From Pyrofollis japonicus (lineage in GTDB: Archaea > Thermoproteota > Thermoprotei_A > Sulfolobales > Pyrodictiaceae), in the NCBI RefSeq assembly GCF_033097485.1, contig NZ_AP028634.1, positions 1,417,126-1,481,125 of the forward strand: a stretch of 64,000 bases of DNA, written 5' to 3'. Below, piece by piece: positions 19,394 to 58,057 of this stretch. The position numbers and the translations under genes are program-made. The notes beneath the pieces were generated by a model that had not been told where the DNA came from, made no database searches, and saw only the letters and a list, made by a program, of their open reading frames with translations. Numbering within the stretch: the stretch's first letter is position 1; each line of letters opens with the position of its first letter.

Positions 19394-22500
<3,107 letters not shown>

Positions 22501-38662: not shown

Positions 38663-39448
38663 TTACTTGTTCATACATGTAAGCGTATCTATGATGTTGA
38701 TGGCTATGCTTGCCCTTCGTTTTAATCGCGTCTCATTTTTGTATTGTTTTAACAAGGTCTTTATCTCCTCGCTAATATCCTTGACGCAAATGTTTCGGCT
38801 TAGGACCTTCGAGCGCAGTATTCCTCCTACTAATTGTGTAAGATTAGATGGCCTTCTTGAGACAGTTGCTGACTCGAAGTCGATAATATAGGGTTCAAGG
38901 GTGTTATTTTCGACTATAACTTGTCGATGTGGTCTTGCAAGTTCGTTATGGCTAATGCCTAGGATGTCTAAGAGGAATGCCTTCCAGAGTAGTCTCCGCA
39001 TTATCAGTGTGGTTTTGGCAGTGTTGTTGCACGAATCTAGTGCTTCGTCTAAGTGCTTGCCTTTAATGTACTCCATTGCTATAAATAAGTTGTTGTAGCT
39101 GTAGACTTGGGGAGATATGTTAATTATTGATGCTGTTATGAGCATTGCTGCTTCGTGAAGCAGGCTTATTCTTCTAGAGCCAGGTCGTAGAGCTTTAACC
39201 GCGACGATTCTTTCACCCATTAGTGCTAGGAAGACGTTACTTGCCCATCCTTTTCCTAGGAGCATCAGTTTTCCTATTCTTAGATTACCCCTATTTACAT
39301 AGTGAGTTATCCCATGTTGGGTCAGAGCATCTATTAATTTGTTGCAGAAATCTGTTTCAGGTCTTGGAAAACATATGGCTTCTTTGGCTACTTCCAGCGG
39401 TATGGCTTCATCCAATGCGGTGTCTTTTCTACGAATTTCTCCAGCCAT
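38663..39448 (-). CDS. COG2112-type archaeal Ser/Thr protein kinase
   Basis: An atypical kinase of 261 residues. The glycine loop is LGKGWASNVFLA (about 64-75), the ATP lysine is in IVAVKALRPGS, the catalytic loop reads HNELARPHRQVI instead of HRDLKxxN, and the metal motif is DFESA instead of DFG. These features define the archaeal COG2112 group, which is related to RIO/Bud32 kinases. The substrate is unknown. The first 61 bp overlap the end of the CCA-enzyme gene, so a shared role in tRNA biology is possible. TTG 39415 is an alternative start. Confidence 0.82.
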   Translation of the reverse strand: MAGEIRRKDTALDEAIPLEVAKEAICFPRPETDFCNKLIDALTQHGITHYVNRGNLRIGKLMLLGKGWASNVFLALMGERIVAVKALRPGSRRISLLHEAAMLITASIINISPQVYSYNNLFIAMEYIKGKHLDEALDSCNNTAKTTLIMRRLLWKAFLLDILGISHNELARPHRQVIVENNTLEPYIIDFESATVSRRPSNLTQLVGGILRSKVLSRNICVKDISEEIKTLLKQYKNETRLKRRASIAINIIDTLTCMNK

Positions 39449-40965
39449 GCTAATTCGTCCCTGTCAAGGTTCTCTATAAGGGCTAGAGCTTTTCCGACAC
39501 GTATAGTATAGCTCTTTGCTGCTTTTGGGAGCAAGTCTCTAATAGTGCTTGCTAGGAGTTCTTCTGGCCTGCGATATCGTCTCTTCTTCAGTGCTACGAG
39601 CCGCCCAGCGTCGTCAATCCAGGGCCCAATAGTGTCCTCGCTACTGAGGTGTTTCCGTAGAAACCTTTCAGCGTTTTCACCCGCCCATGCAGGTGGGCCT
39701 CTTCGTAGCTCGTAGCTTGGTAAGACCGGGTTCTCAACCTCTACCGAGATATAAGCTCTTGTGCCGTCTTCCTTGGCATAGACGCTGTAATCGTCTACGA
39801 TGAACCCATTGCTCTCTAAGATGCGGGTTATTATTCTCGCCACGCGTTTGGCTATCCCCCATAGATTATCTGGGGCTTCTTTCTCTGGTGGTGTTAGGAC
39901 TATGAGTACAGTGTGGTCTATGCGGTCGGCGGCTTTTGCGCCTATCTGTCCCGGATAAGGAGTCTTATGTGGAGTAAATACGTGGAAGAACTCATATCTC
40001 GGAATTCTGAGATACATTTTGGCGGCAGTGATGAATAATGAGAACGATTTGTACGATAATGCTGCGGCAACGTTTCGTTTAGGGTCTACGGGGTCAGGAA
40101 ATATCAGAGGAGCATTGCTGTAAGTTTCTAATAGCCTATCCACGTGTTGTTTCTCTTTCTCGCTAAGCGTTATAACGAGTCTGGGCTTCCATTTCTTTGA
40201 TGCATTGTCTAGTAGTGATCTAAAGCATTTATACTTGATTATAAGCAATTCAGCTAGGTATCCTGAGAATCCTTGCACAGCTATTTCTGCCCCATAGACT
40301 CCTATGCCCTTTAAGAAGGATTTCAGCAATCGTATCTCGTTTCTTTGCTCCGGGGACGTGTTTTTTAGCACGAATTCTCGATGGTAGGGGGTTCTGTCAA
40401 CAGCTGTTATTGGTTTTGATGGATCTTTTACTCTACATCCGGGAACAATCTCTATCCATACGCCGCTGTATAGTAGTCGTAGATATGGGTGTTGTGCATA
40501 TCTCTTTTCGACACGATAGCCCATATTCCTTAGGCTTGATTCAATCCGGGCTACTAGGCCTTGATTTATGATGCTAAGGCAGTTTTCATGTGGTAAGAGA
40601 ATAAATAAGTCTATATCGACGTCTCCTCGAAGCCAAGTATCCTTGGCAAAGCTTCCCTCGGCGGTGACCAATGCATCGTGGATCCCCAATCCTTCTAGAA
40701 TTGAAATGATTAGTTTTCTCACCTTATCAACTACTCTTTTAAGCATTTCATAATCCTCGCTGCGGGGTACAATTAGCTCAAGTACTTTTTTCTCGACATC
40801 GTTGTGAAGACACTCCAAGACTCTCCTTGCACCTTCCACTATGCGTGTCGTTATCTGGATAGAGATATTTACGTGTCCTTCGCGATATGGTATAAAACAT
40901 GGCGATGAAGAGGGCTGGTATTGCTGAACAAGCCTAATTGATGACGGACACCAGCTCTGAGCCAT
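39388..40965 (-). CDS. cca: CCA-adding tRNA nucleotidyltransferase (archaeal class I)
   Basis: Adds or repairs the CCA end of tRNA. The catalytic head has GSFAKDTWLRGDVDIDLFILL (key GS and DxD near residues 105-122), followed by RVKDPSKPITAVDRTPYH, the neck region, and the archaeal body and tail domains ending GKALALIENL. ATG 40965 gives 525 residues, longer than the family (about 450); the first 40 residues look non-conserved, so GTG 40839 (residue 43) may be the true start. It heads the CCA-kinase-HTH operon. Confidence 0.9.
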   Translation of the reverse strand: MAQSWCPSSIRLVQQYQPSSSPCFIPYREGHVNISIQITTRIVEGARRVLECLHNDVEKKVLELIVPRSEDYEMLKRVVDKVRKLIISILEGLGIHDALVTAEGSFAKDTWLRGDVDIDLFILLPHENCLSIINQGLVARIESSLRNMGYRVEKRYAQHPYLRLLYSGVWIEIVPGCRVKDPSKPITAVDRTPYHREFVLKNTSPEQRNEIRLLKSFLKGIGVYGAEIAVQGFSGYLAELLIIKYKCFRSLLDNASKKWKPRLVITLSEKEKQHVDRLLETYSNAPLIFPDPVDPKRNVAAALSYKSFSLFITAAKMYLRIPRYEFFHVFTPHKTPYPGQIGAKAADRIDHTVLIVLTPPEKEAPDNLWGIAKRVARIITRILESNGFIVDDYSVYAKEDGTRAYISVEVENPVLPSYELRRGPPAWAGENAERFLRKHLSSEDTIGPWIDDAGRLVALKKRRYRRPEELLASTIRDLLPKAAKSYTIRVGKALALIENLDRDELAWLEKFVEKTPHWMKPYRWK

Positions 40966-41051: not shown

Positions 41052-41795
41052 TTGAGCACGTTCGATAGACGCGTAAAAATAGTCTATGAAAAGCTTAGGG
41101 CTAAGGCAGAGACTATAAGCAATGATACTATCAGGAGACTCGTGCTTGAACTCCTAACAGAGCCCGTGATAACGTTTACAAAGGTTGAGCCAAAGATAAG
41201 CTTCTTTGAAAGCCCTGCCGCGCCCAAGAAGCACCATGCTTACCCCGGGGGACTCCTAGACCATACTCTCGGTGTTACGGAGATAGCCGAGAAGCTAATG
41301 GATGTCTATAGCAACATATATGGTGCTAAAATCGATAGGAATATAGTTGTTGCCGCAGCTCTGCTACACGACTTATTTAAGTATTATCAGTACGAGAGGG
41401 ATCCATTGACTGGCGGATATAGGCCTCGTTCTGATTGGTACTTTAGCCACGACTTTGCAATGGTTGCTGAGCTTAGTGTACGTGGAGCCCCTGAGCGCTT
41501 GATAAGAGCCGTAGCAGAGGTTCACGGCACGGTTCCTTTCACAATGATAGAGTCACAGATAGTTCACCAGGCCGATTCGACAGATTCTGAGATGATCGCT
41601 AAGATACAAGACATAATATGGAGAGTCTGTATGGATATAGAGATAGAGATACCGGAGACAAAGGCGATAAAGGTATTCAATGAGGCTCTTAAACGGTTGC
41701 CGATATTTGAGTATGCGCGAATATACTATAGTGAAGGCAGAGACGCGCTGCGCGAGTACATAAAGAAGCTATTAGGACTTGAGACTAAGTCCTAG
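41052..41795 (+). CDS. HD-domain phosphohydrolase/nuclease
   Basis: A 247-residue metal-dependent HD protein. Metal ligands are visible in HHAYPGGLLDHTLGV (about 60-75), AALLHDLFKYYQY with the HD pair (about 105), and FSHDFAMVAE plus VAEVHGTVPF further on. This order resembles the HD domain of YhaM-type 3'-5' exoribonucleases, here without an OB domain. The exact substrate is unknown. The start is TTG 41052. It is followed by the small-RNA interval. Confidence 0.8.
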   Translation: MSTFDRRVKIVYEKLRAKAETISNDTIRRLVLELLTEPVITFTKVEPKISFFESPAAPKKHHAYPGGLLDHTLGVTEIAEKLMDVYSNIYGAKIDRNIVVAAALLHDLFKYYQYERDPLTGGYRPRSDWYFSHDFAMVAELSVRGAPERLIRAVAEVHGTVPFTMIESQIVHQADSTDSEMIAKIQDIIWRVCMDIEIEIPETKAIKVFNEALKRLPIFEYARIYYSEGRDALREYIKKLLGLETKS

Positions 41796-41829
41796 AACAT
41801 GCTGAGATGAGGAGGCCGACATAAACCTA

Positions 41830-41850
41830 CACCCCTGGAGCCAAGGGGTG
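41830..41850. other. Perfect hairpin, start of small-RNA interval
   Basis: CACCCCT and AGGGGTG enclose the loop GGAGCCA. It lies 35 bp after the HD gene. It could be a terminator or part of an unrecognised RNA. Confidence 0.4.
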
Positions 41851-41970
41851 GATGAAGAAGGGTCGATTTGCCGAGGAGATGCATAGCAAGTTCATGTAGA
41901 TAACGACTTTAAGTATCTTAGCATTCGTTGATTATAATGTGGCTGTGCTTGGCTTGTCCAATCCATGTCT

Positions 41971-42043
41971 TTTGCCGATGAAGACCCGTCGGACGTAGAC
42001 GAGCATATGCGATGAGATGTCCCCTGGCTCCTCTGAGGCAGAA
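41971..42043 (+). ncRNA. Candidate C/D box sRNA (plus strand)
   Basis: A box-C-like CGATGA (41976-41981), internal GAGATGT (42014-42020), a 12-base guide, and box D CTGA (42033-42036). TGCC before box C and GGCA after box D can form the terminal stem. A TATA-like ATTATAAT at about 41930-41937 would start the transcript near 41960. The D' box is unclear (CGGA or ACGA), so confidence is moderate. Confidence 0.45.
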
Positions 42044-42075: not shown

Positions 42076-42134
42076 CGCTCAGACGGGTCCAGCTACATCA
42101 TGTCTTCAGTTGACCGATAACCGTCATCATAGCC
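42076..42134 (-). ncRNA. C/D box guide sRNA targeting 23S rRNA
   Basis: On the minus strand: box C TGATGA (42124-42129), guide, D' CTGA, four-base spacer, C' ATGATGT (42095-42101), 12-base guide (42083-42094), box D CTGA (42079-42082). GCT before C and AGC after D can pair. The second guide pairs with the 23S segment at 19940-19950 over 11 contiguous positions including one G-U, directly next to box D; by the fifth-nucleotide rule it would methylate the G at 19946. Nop5 and fibrillarin, the protein partners, are encoded at 53-55 kb. Confidence 0.7.
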
Positions 42135-42206
42135 GTGATGATTAGCAAACCATCAGACTCGGAAAAGGGATGAAGAAGAGCTCTCTCTCTGAGCCCTTTT
42201 GCATCA
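42131..42206 (+). ncRNA. Possible second C/D sRNA, divergent
   Basis: GTGATGA (42135-42141), a 12-base guide, CAGA as D', GGATGAA as C' and CTGA as D near 42198. AAAAGGG and CCCTTTT also form a stem around the second half. No rRNA target was found and no promoter is evident, so this may be chance. Confidence 0.3.
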
Positions 42207-43271
42207 TTAGAGAAGAGCTTTTAGCACCCTAGCGACAGATAGTGGCATCTTTGTGATAATTCGTAATGTTTTCTTAAGGTTAAGTTCTCCCAACCCTATT
42301 GCAGTAAACACGTCAAGCGGTATAGACTCTAGTACTGCTGCTCGTGTTTTAGGAGACACGGCCTTTACTCTATCTAGTAGCTTTCTTTGCCTCGATATCC
42401 ACTCTATTATGTTTGATATCACTGAGACTCTATCCACGCCCTTATCTATGCTCTGAAACAAAGCATATGATGAAGCAACGCTTGGCCTAATTCCCTCACC
42501 TGTTAAGGGATAAACGAATCCTGCTGCTTCTCCTACTACGGGGCTTCTTTCTCTCATGAAGAGTTCTTTATTCACATTTGATGCAATAATCCTTGCTCCC
42601 TTAATGGCAGAGGATTTCTCTGCTTTCACTGATCTAAGATACTCTCTCGTAAAGACTTCAAGCCTATAAACAAGTTTATCAAACGATTCAAGCCCCCCAA
42701 CACCTATATCAACGACACGTTCACCTCTAGGAAACACCCAATAGTATCCGATTAGGTTCTCGTCAAACCAGAACTCTATTGTATTCACGTCGTCTAAAGG
42801 CTCTTTGAGCTCGAGGATGCGTTGTACTGCATTTATTACTTCAACTCCATTTTTATGAATGTATCCATACGCACCTATAGAGCCTACAGCTATTATCGTC
42901 TCCTCGCGAGGATCTACACCGATAGGTGATAAATCTTCGCGAAGACGTACAGGTTTTCGTATGAACTCCGAAGACGAAATTAAGTATTTCAGGAACCCCG
43001 GTTTATTGATAATGTAGCCCCAATGTCCTCCACTATGTTCTTTTATGAGTTGGTTGTTTAGATATATACGAAAGCCTTTTATCTCTGTTAATATAAACTC
43101 CTTTGGGATTTTTATGAAATGTTCTATCGAGCCAGGTACCGCCCAGCCGCATGGCTTTGAGCCAGGTTCGTGAATGTCGTAGACTATGACTTTGTAGCCC
43201 TTGTTTGAAGCGTAAAACGCAAAGGAGGCACCTGCTGGGCCTGAACCTACAACTGTGAAATCGTGCCTCAT
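42207..43271 (-). CDS. Geranylgeranyl reductase family flavoprotein
   Basis: An FAD enzyme of 354 residues that saturates the isoprenoid chains of archaeal lipids. The N-terminal FAD loop is VVGSGPAGASFAFYA, the substrate motif PCGWAVPG lies near residue 41, YYWVFPRGERVVDIGVGG near 175, and GEAAGFVYPLTGEGIRPS near 245 is the second FAD motif. It is adjacent to GGPP synthase (67 bp apart), which fits a lipid operon. The length is shorter than typical 390-450 residue members. Confidence 0.88.
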   Translation of the reverse strand: MRHDFTVVGSGPAGASFAFYASNKGYKVIVYDIHEPGSKPCGWAVPGSIEHFIKIPKEFILTEIKGFRIYLNNQLIKEHSGGHWGYIINKPGFLKYLISSSEFIRKPVRLREDLSPIGVDPREETIIAVGSIGAYGYIHKNGVEVINAVQRILELKEPLDDVNTIEFWFDENLIGYYWVFPRGERVVDIGVGGLESFDKLVYRLEVFTREYLRSVKAEKSSAIKGARIIASNVNKELFMRERSPVVGEAAGFVYPLTGEGIRPSVASSYALFQSIDKGVDRVSVISNIIEWISRQRKLLDRVKAVSPKTRAAVLESIPLDVFTAIGLGELNLKKTLRIITKMPLSVARVLKALL

Positions 43272-51909: not shown

Positions 51910-52053
51910 TACGTGCGGCCCTCAGCAGCCTGGTTATAGATCATTGCTTAAAGGCTCATACCTTACATGGCTCCTCATCGGAGCCGTTTTAATACGGGAA
52001 TAGCCGGTAGGGGGTTAATAGATGCTAGGACATAATAGTGTTAATGGTGATGT

Positions 52054-52957: not shown

Positions 52958-54211
52958 ATGAAGATATATGTGGTGCAACACTTTACTGGAAGTTATGCTC
53001 TGAATGAGAATAAGGATGTTGTAGCATTCGTGCATGGTCCTAAAGGACTCGATGATATGGTTGAAGAAGCGCTAAAGATAGAGCGCGGTGAGCCTACTGC
53101 AGCCTACCTAAGGCTTCTTGAGAAACTAAAGGAGATGGGTATAAATGAAATAGCTGTCGAAACTAATGAGGAAGCAAAGACAGCAACGGCTAAAGGATTC
53201 GATGCAAAGGTCGAACCTGCAAATCCGATAGCAAGGTATTTCCGCGAACACGTAGCCGAGATCGCTGTAGATACAGGATTTGTGAAAAGCATAGAAGACT
53301 TCTATAACCTACTTCATGAATTTACTATAGAAACAACGCGTAGGAAGCTTAGAAGGGCGGCTCAGAAGAGAGACCTATTAGCCGCCCAAGCTATTCGCGC
53401 AATCGACGATATAGATAAGACGACAAACTTGTTTGCTGCAAGGCTTCGAGAATGGTATAGTCTGCACTTCCCAGAGCTTGATGACCTTGTTAGAGAACAC
53501 GAAGACTATGTAAGAATTGTTGCAGAACTAGGTCATAGAGACAATATAACTGTTGAAAACCTTGTAAAGCTTGGTTTTAGCGAAGAAAAAGCCAAAAAGA
53601 TAGCCGAAGCAGCTAAAAAGAGCATGGGTGCCGATTACCCAGAGTTCGACATAGAGCCTATGCAGAGGCTCGCAAGAATAACGCTTGAACTCTATAAGCT
53701 CCGCCGCGACCTATCAGACTACATTGCACAAGTGATGAAAGAAGTTGCTCCAAACATAACAGCCTTGGTTGGCCCGCTGCTAGGTGCAAGACTCATAAGC
53801 CTAGCAGGCGGACTAGAAGAACTAGCATTCATGCCAGCAAGCACGATACAAGTCCTTGGGGCAGAAAAGGCACTATTCCGAGCACTGCGTACAGGCGGAA
53901 AGCCGCCCAAGCATGGAGTAATATTCCAGTACCCAGATATCCATAGGAGCCCGCGCTGGCAGAGAGGTAAGATTGCCCGCGCACTGGCAGCGAAGCTTGC
54001 AATAGCAGCAAAGGTTGATTACTTTACTGGTCGCTTTATTGGCGATAAGCTAAAAGAAGCTCTGCGCAAGAGAATAGAGGAGATAAAGAGAATATATGCT
54101 AAGCCACCGAAGAGGAAGAAAGAAGAGGTAAAACCAGCCAAGCCTGCAAAGCGTCCGCCAAGAAGAGGAAGAAGAGGCGGCAAGCGCAAAGGTAGGGGCG
54201 GAAGAAGGTAA
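52958..54211 (+). CDS. nop5: C/D RNP core protein Nop5 (Nop56/58)
   Basis: Nop5 dimerises by a coiled coil, binds fibrillarin with its N-terminal domain and the L7Ae-RNA complex with its C-terminal domain. The C-terminal Nop domain is clear: LVGPLLGARLISLAGGLEEL and GKPPKHGVIFQYPDIHRSP (about 270-325), and the tail is very basic (KRPPRRGRRGGKRKGRGG). The coiled coil lies at about 130-250. It is directly followed by fibrillarin, the standard archaeal pair, and these proteins would use the C/D RNAs reported here. Confidence 0.95.
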   Translation: MKIYVVQHFTGSYALNENKDVVAFVHGPKGLDDMVEEALKIERGEPTAAYLRLLEKLKEMGINEIAVETNEEAKTATAKGFDAKVEPANPIARYFREHVAEIAVDTGFVKSIEDFYNLLHEFTIETTRRKLRRAAQKRDLLAAQAIRAIDDIDKTTNLFAARLREWYSLHFPELDDLVREHEDYVRIVAELGHRDNITVENLVKLGFSEEKAKKIAEAAKKSMGADYPEFDIEPMQRLARITLELYKLRRDLSDYIAQVMKEVAPNITALVGPLLGARLISLAGGLEELAFMPASTIQVLGAEKALFRALRTGGKPPKHGVIFQYPDIHRSPRWQRGKIARALAAKLAIAAKVDYFTGRFIGDKLKEALRKRIEEIKRIYAKPPKRKKEEVKPAKPAKRPPRRGRRGGKRKGRGGRR

Positions 54212-54264: not shown

Positions 54265-54969
54265 ATGGAGGTAGTTAATGTAAAAGAGCATGAAAAGTAC
54301 AAGGGCGTCTATATAGTAGAACTAGAGGATGGATCAACGAGGTTAGCAACAGTAAACCTTGCACCGGGGAAACGAGTTTATGGAGAACGATTATTCAAGT
54401 GGGGAGAACTTGAGCTAAGAGAATGGAATCCGTATAGAAGCAAACTTGCAGCTGCCCTCCTTAAGGGTTTGGAAGAGCTACCAATTCAGCGCGGGCATCG
54501 AATACTTTATCTAGGTGCGGCGACTGGCACGACACCAAGCCATGTATCGGATATAGTTGGGCTTGAGGGCAAAGTGTATGCACTTGATGTTGCCCCTAGG
54601 GTAATGAGAGAACTTGTAGCTGTTTGTGAGACCAGGCCAAACATGTTCCCATTATTGAATGATGCTAGAAAGCCCTATGAGTATAGACACATAGTAGAAC
54701 TTGTTGACGGTATATATGCTGATGTTGCCCAGCCCGAACAAGCAGCTATTGTTGCAGACAATGCTGATTACTTCCTCAAGGAGAATGGCTATCTGCTACT
54801 AGCCATAAAGGCAAGAAGCATTGATGTTACAAAAGAGCCTAGTGAGGTATTCAAACACGAGATAAACGTGTTAAAGGAAAGAGGATTTGAAATAGTTGAT
54901 ATGGTTCACTTAGAGCCCTTCGATAAGGATCACGCAATGGTATACGCGCGATATAGGCCGCAGAAGTAG
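54265..54969 (+). CDS. flpA: Fibrillarin-like rRNA/tRNA 2'-O-methyltransferase
   Basis: The catalytic subunit of C/D RNPs. Methyltransferase motifs: [19 protein letters not shown] (SAM loop, about 77-95), [17 protein letters not shown] and [16 protein letters not shown], with the Lys of [10 protein letters not shown] completing the active site. The length of 234 is normal. It starts 53 bp after nop5 with a GGGGTG site. Confidence 0.96.
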
Positions 54970-57997: not shown

Positions 57998-58057
57998 AAT
58001 ATCAGCCCCCAGCGCCTCTTCACGACTAGTCTGCGTCGTCTAGCCTCATCATCCATG
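57998..58057 (-). ncRNA. Candidate C/D box sRNA (minus strand)
   Basis: Minus strand order: ATGATGA (58046-58052), 12-base guide, CAGA as D', six bases, GTGAAGA as C', 11-base guide, CTGA (58002-58005). Box spacing is close to ideal. A partial match (10 of 11 with two G-U) exists to 23S at 20644-20654, too weak to call. It lies between aspS and ahbD, antisense to the intergenic region. Confidence 0.5.

Follow-up and report, generated by a model that had tools for sequence, protein, structure and literature searches.

A predicted C/D box guide RNA for helix 86 of 23S rRNA in Pyrofollis japonicus and related Pyrodictiaceae

A stretch of 64,000 nucleotides of Pyrofollis japonicus DNA, hereafter the window, carries on its minus strand (42077-42134) what its sequence indicates is a real and ordinary archaeal C/D guide RNA gene, an added member of a well-known family. 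We put at roughly 88% the probability that the product of this gene, sRNA B, is an archaeal C/D box sRNA of ~58 nt whose D guide directs fibrillarin to methylate G2556 of 23S rRNA. The predicted 2'-O-methylation of helix 86 at this residue, which the guide very probably directs, adds a well-supported, testable site in 23S rRNA for hyperthermophilic Pyrodictiaceae.

Results

sRNA B has the box structure of a C/D guide RNA

The original prediction placed all four boxes in order on the minus strand, and we read C, D', C' and D there between 42130 and 42079, with the spacer AGAC separating box D' (42109-42106) from box C' (42101-42095):

42077-42134, minus strand: C/D box sRNA B (box C to box D, 42079-42130)
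42124-42130, minus strand: box C, ATGATGA
42110-42123, minus strand: D' guide, CGGTTATCGGTCAA
42106-42109, minus strand: box D', CTGA
42095-42101, minus strand: box C', ATGATGT
42083-42094, minus strand: D guide, AGCTGGACCCGT, of which the 11 nt adjoining box D pair with 23S rRNA
42079-42082, minus strand: box D, CTGA
19940-19950, minus strand: predicted pairing site of the D guide in 23S rRNA (helix 86, 3' strand)

The order of the boxes, C (RUGAUGA), D' (CUGA), C' and D (CUGA), and their guide-length spacing are those that define the class. When a four-box C/D descriptor was run on both strands of the 64-kb window, sRNA B ranked first, with a single deviation from four perfect boxes, and no Markov-simulated window of the same dinucleotide make-up reached its score. 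At two or fewer box deviations the window holds four C/D motifs, against 0.03 expected from the simulation.

Comparison with Rfam returned sub-threshold matches to archaeal sR44, sR1 and sR14 that cover exactly 42077-42134; every sR family fell below its gathering score (best 23.3 bits, versus 45 for sR44), and we read the similarity as resemblance to the class only. These low scores would suit the view that B is a chance resemblance that is not expressed, to which we give almost no credence: it is opposed by the box structure relative to simulated windows, by the conservation of boxes and guides across genera and by the consistent D-guide target among orthologues (both below). The assignment as a C/D guide RNA is instead backed by the boxes, their spacing, conservation of boxes and guides in three genera, and the genes for Nop5 and fibrillarin.

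The D guide is predicted to target helix 86

The 11-pair match first proposed between the D guide and 23S rRNA was reproduced: the guide pairs contiguously with 19950-19940 (23S 2552-2562), including one G-U, and the pairing directly adjoins box D. Counting by the N+5 rule leads to G19946, 23S position 2556, the residue originally named, which forms a Watson-Crick pair with the guide. Alignment with E. coli 23S equates G19946 with approximately G2365, which we assign to helix 86 of domain V, on its 3' strand. Helix 86 in the window reads CCGGACCC / GGGTCCGG, and the D guide nearly copies the opposite (5') strand; because of this resemblance, the guide would have to bind before the helix folds, and it may also delay that folding. 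Following the established mechanism, L7Ae would bind the C/D and C'/D' motifs of B first, followed by Nop5 and fibrillarin; with the D guide paired to the 3' strand of helix 86, fibrillarin would methylate the 2'-OH of the G at 2556.

That guide and target were both read in one window had been offered as a strength of the match. The match itself stands, but its strength within a single genome is lower than implied, at about 5-6% by chance: an equal match arises in 5.4% of trials with shuffled D guides and in 6% with shuffled rRNA, and 1.6% of the other CTGA-adjacent 14-mers of the window match rRNA equally well (5% at similar G+C). From Pyrofollis japonicus alone the match is modest and only suggestive, and odds of about 1 in 20 would leave room for a real C/D sRNA whose D guide serves mainly another target, with a fortuitous fit to helix 86. 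We nonetheless consider such a coincidence improbable, since each D guide tested among the orthologues has 23S 2556 as its first-ranked site in the window's 16S and 23S rRNA, that site's joint score is 9.44 and the runner-up's 6.89, and nothing better appeared among the 41 tRNA predictions tested, which came from 30 of 45 tRNA loci.

In the joint permutation test the window's own 23S served as target for all species and the guides of genus g2 were trimmed by 2 nt. The joint score at 2556 was reached in 2 of 3000 column permutations (p ~0.0007) and, with one D guide per genus, in 9 of 3000 (p 0.003). It is thus the comparison across Pyrodictiaceae genera that makes the case for 23S 2556 a strong one.

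Boxes and guides of sRNA B are conserved in three genera

A search of relatives for a conserved guide had been suggested as a check, and orthologues of B with boxes and guides retained do lie at the same locus in three Pyrodictiaceae genera. Since BLAST with sRNA B beyond its genus gave no significant match to any orthologue, synteny was needed to find them, and syntenic gaps in the other genera were located by protein search with the neighbouring reductase gene; a search of genome contigs with the reductase protein returned no relatives. Across the four species of the window's own genus (g1), indels have replaced the spacers between sRNAs, but the boxes and both guides of B have been kept.

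The D guides of the orthologues read AGCTGGACCCG followed by T or C in the window's genus, GCCGGACCC.. in g2, and GCCGGACCCTA, GCTGGACCCGC and GCTGGACCCGT in g8. Within the 9-nt core the sole substitution, T to C, turns a G-U pair into G-C. The outermost pairs vary, with a mismatch at guide position 1 in three genomes (G001, G002, G004), and the D guide of some g2 species mismatches 23S position 2553. In g2 genomes box D is CAGA or CGGA and lies two bases further on; unless the alternative register is taken for the box, N+5 would then be 23S 2554. The locus is in this sense a compact natural record of guide drift while the target is kept.

The draft g8 genome G017 has CTGGACCC and CCAGTC guides; should its helix 86 have GGGTCCAG, this would be a compensatory change matching both. 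The 23S fragment found in that draft (contig C100, locus L121) is unlike the 23S of its relatives and bacterial-like; judged by its sequence it is probably bacterial contamination, and the contig was left out of the comparison.

Pattern searches were extended to the whole order. The D' guide of B was found in the window's genus only. The pattern YYGGACCCVNCTGA gave 42 matches, not above the reversed-pattern control, and most were rejected as coding-like and without a C box; match L077 (genome G047) was rejected as probably coding. By inspection, the only YYGGACCCVNCTGA matches with C/D structure outside the window's genus were L090, L099, L101 and L111, the last being the orthologue of B at the same locus in G017. 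L090, from another family of the order (genome G168), is a C/D sRNA with a helix 86-type guide at the D' position that carries CTGGACCCC, and the 23S of its congeners has G instead of C at the position paired with CTGGACCCC, a compensating base. The L090 sRNA also has a GGGGTG/CACCCC terminal stem.

No consistent target emerged for the D' guide

Over the orthologues, the D' guide of B points to no consistent target in the sequences compared. Within the window's genus its best fit is 23S 522 (E. coli C444), with 10 bp including one G-U, and it can form 12 pairs, two of them G-U, with tRNA-Ile(GAU), placing C32 at N+5; the guide has possibly been re-targeted within this genus. Taken jointly, the orthologues favour 23S 2535 (p 0.009-0.025), which belongs to the 5' strand of helix 86 and ranks first only in two g8 genomes; in G015 the guide makes 9 Watson-Crick pairs there.

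This joint site, the pairing in G015 and the precedent of sR15 and sR17 in Nanoarchaeum equitans, which bind both strands of one helix (PMC4644070), would together allow B to be a dual guide and chaperone, its D' guide acting on the 5' strand of helix 86 (23S C2535, window 19967) so that both strands are held apart until methylated. Such a role would extend the preferred explanation and not exclude it. We regard it as a tentative and rather doubtful addition: the p values are weak, the D' match at 2535 in Pyrofollis japonicus is just 7 bp with one G-U and ranks fifth, and both 23S 522 and C32 of tRNA-Ile(GAU) offer this guide more pairs.

sRNA B lies in a cluster of four C/D-type sRNAs

Four C/D-type sRNAs, termed 0, A, B and C, form a conserved cluster in the gap of ~410 nt that separates an HD-domain gene from a geranylgeranyl-reductase-like gene, and genes for two sRNP proteins also lie in the window:

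41052-41795, plus strand: HD-domain gene
41803-41876, plus strand: sRNA 0, C/D-like, its D' degenerate; 23S 2669 (window 19833) is the predicted target of its D guide
41973-42040, plus strand: C/D sRNA A, with strong conservation of boxes and guides between genera
42131-42194, plus strand: C/D sRNA C, head-to-head with B
42207-43271, minus strand: geranylgeranyl-reductase-like gene
52958-54211, plus strand: gene for a Nop5/56-type protein, sRNP core
54265-54969, plus strand: gene for fibrillarin, the methyltransferase

The best predicted target of sRNA A is in 16S rRNA, at E. coli G769 (p 0.055). Joint target inference for sRNA C gives 23S 2681 and 2659 (window near 19821 and 19843), and its guides, together with the D guide of sRNA 0, appear to aim at neighbouring sites close to the peptidyl transferase centre, in domain V of 23S.

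Only 4 nt separate the C boxes of B and C, which leaves no room for separate promoters between them. sRNA B lies ~75 nt downstream of the reductase-like gene on the same strand, a position from which it would probably be released from the 3' tail of the reductase transcript, and the HD-domain gene is the likely source of a read-through transcript for the plus-strand sRNAs. The sRNAs in the gap likely come, then, from processed read-through transcripts of the two convergent genes; most archaeal C/D sRNAs have been reported as processed from such transcripts (PMC7994747).

Neighbouring sRNA genes appear to switch strands

Most surprising among these findings is that neighbouring sRNA genes appear to have changed strands. 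We oriented each locus with sRNAs 0 and A on the plus strand and the reductase gene on the minus strand. In this frame the four genomes of the window's genus have sRNA C on the plus strand, but at the same locus it occupies the minus strand in four genomes of g2 and in four of g8, among them G019, which is without sRNAs 0 and A; loci with C on the minus strand include L130, L132, L135 and L137. In g3 and g4 the upstream gene is different and sRNA C is on the plus strand, weakly so in g4. sRNA B is on the minus strand in g1, g2, G013 and G015, and on the plus strand in G017 (L134). The change in C rests on several complete or near-complete genomes per side, that in B on one draft genome, G017.

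From these arrangements we lean towards in-place inversion of individual C/D sRNA genes within the locus. With the two flanking genes facing each other across the gap, read-through would transcribe either orientation, and a flip could for this reason be tolerated; for the recombination site, a speculative candidate is the short inverted stem at the ends of each sRNA. A limited literature search returned no report of in-place sRNA gene inversion, which is not evidence of novelty. A strand change in place would fit the published view that a transcribed setting suffices and a promoter of its own is unneeded (PMC7994747).

Other C/D motifs in the window

A candidate at 40905-40960 (plus strand) provided a positive control: its guides match 16S rRNA at ~G514 and, through 12 pairs of which one is G-U, at A535 (E. 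coli numbering), hitting the paired A535/G515 target published for crenarchaeal sRNAs (PMC4644070). The candidate overlaps the ORF at 39388-40965 in antisense, at the 5' end of that ORF. Weaker C/D-like motifs occur on the minus strand at 58002-58052 (two box deviations) and 51922-51978 (four); their rRNA matches are not distinctive.

Discussion

sRNA B resembles the archaeal sR families of Sulfolobus, Ignicoccus, Pyrobaculum and other genera (PMC4644070, PMC7994747) in its four ordered boxes and two guides of 12-14 nt, as well as in its predicted N+5 rRNA target, its clustering next to coding genes and a genome that encodes Nop5 and fibrillarin. It differs from the archaeal sR families in Rfam in that its guide sequences reach no family's gathering score. 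Helix 86 is absent as an sRNA target from the main text of PMC4644070, which also counts 262 of 489 archaeal C/D sRNAs as double guides; a second target is not required of every member. Another close parallel is the pair sR15 and sR17 of N. equitans, which bind the two strands of a helix in 16S rRNA (PMC4644070): the g8 orthologues of B could likewise bind both strands of helix 86, whereas Pyrofollis japonicus shows a weak second match, and only ~20 nt lie between the two strands of helix 86, in contrast to the distant strands bound by sR15 and sR17.
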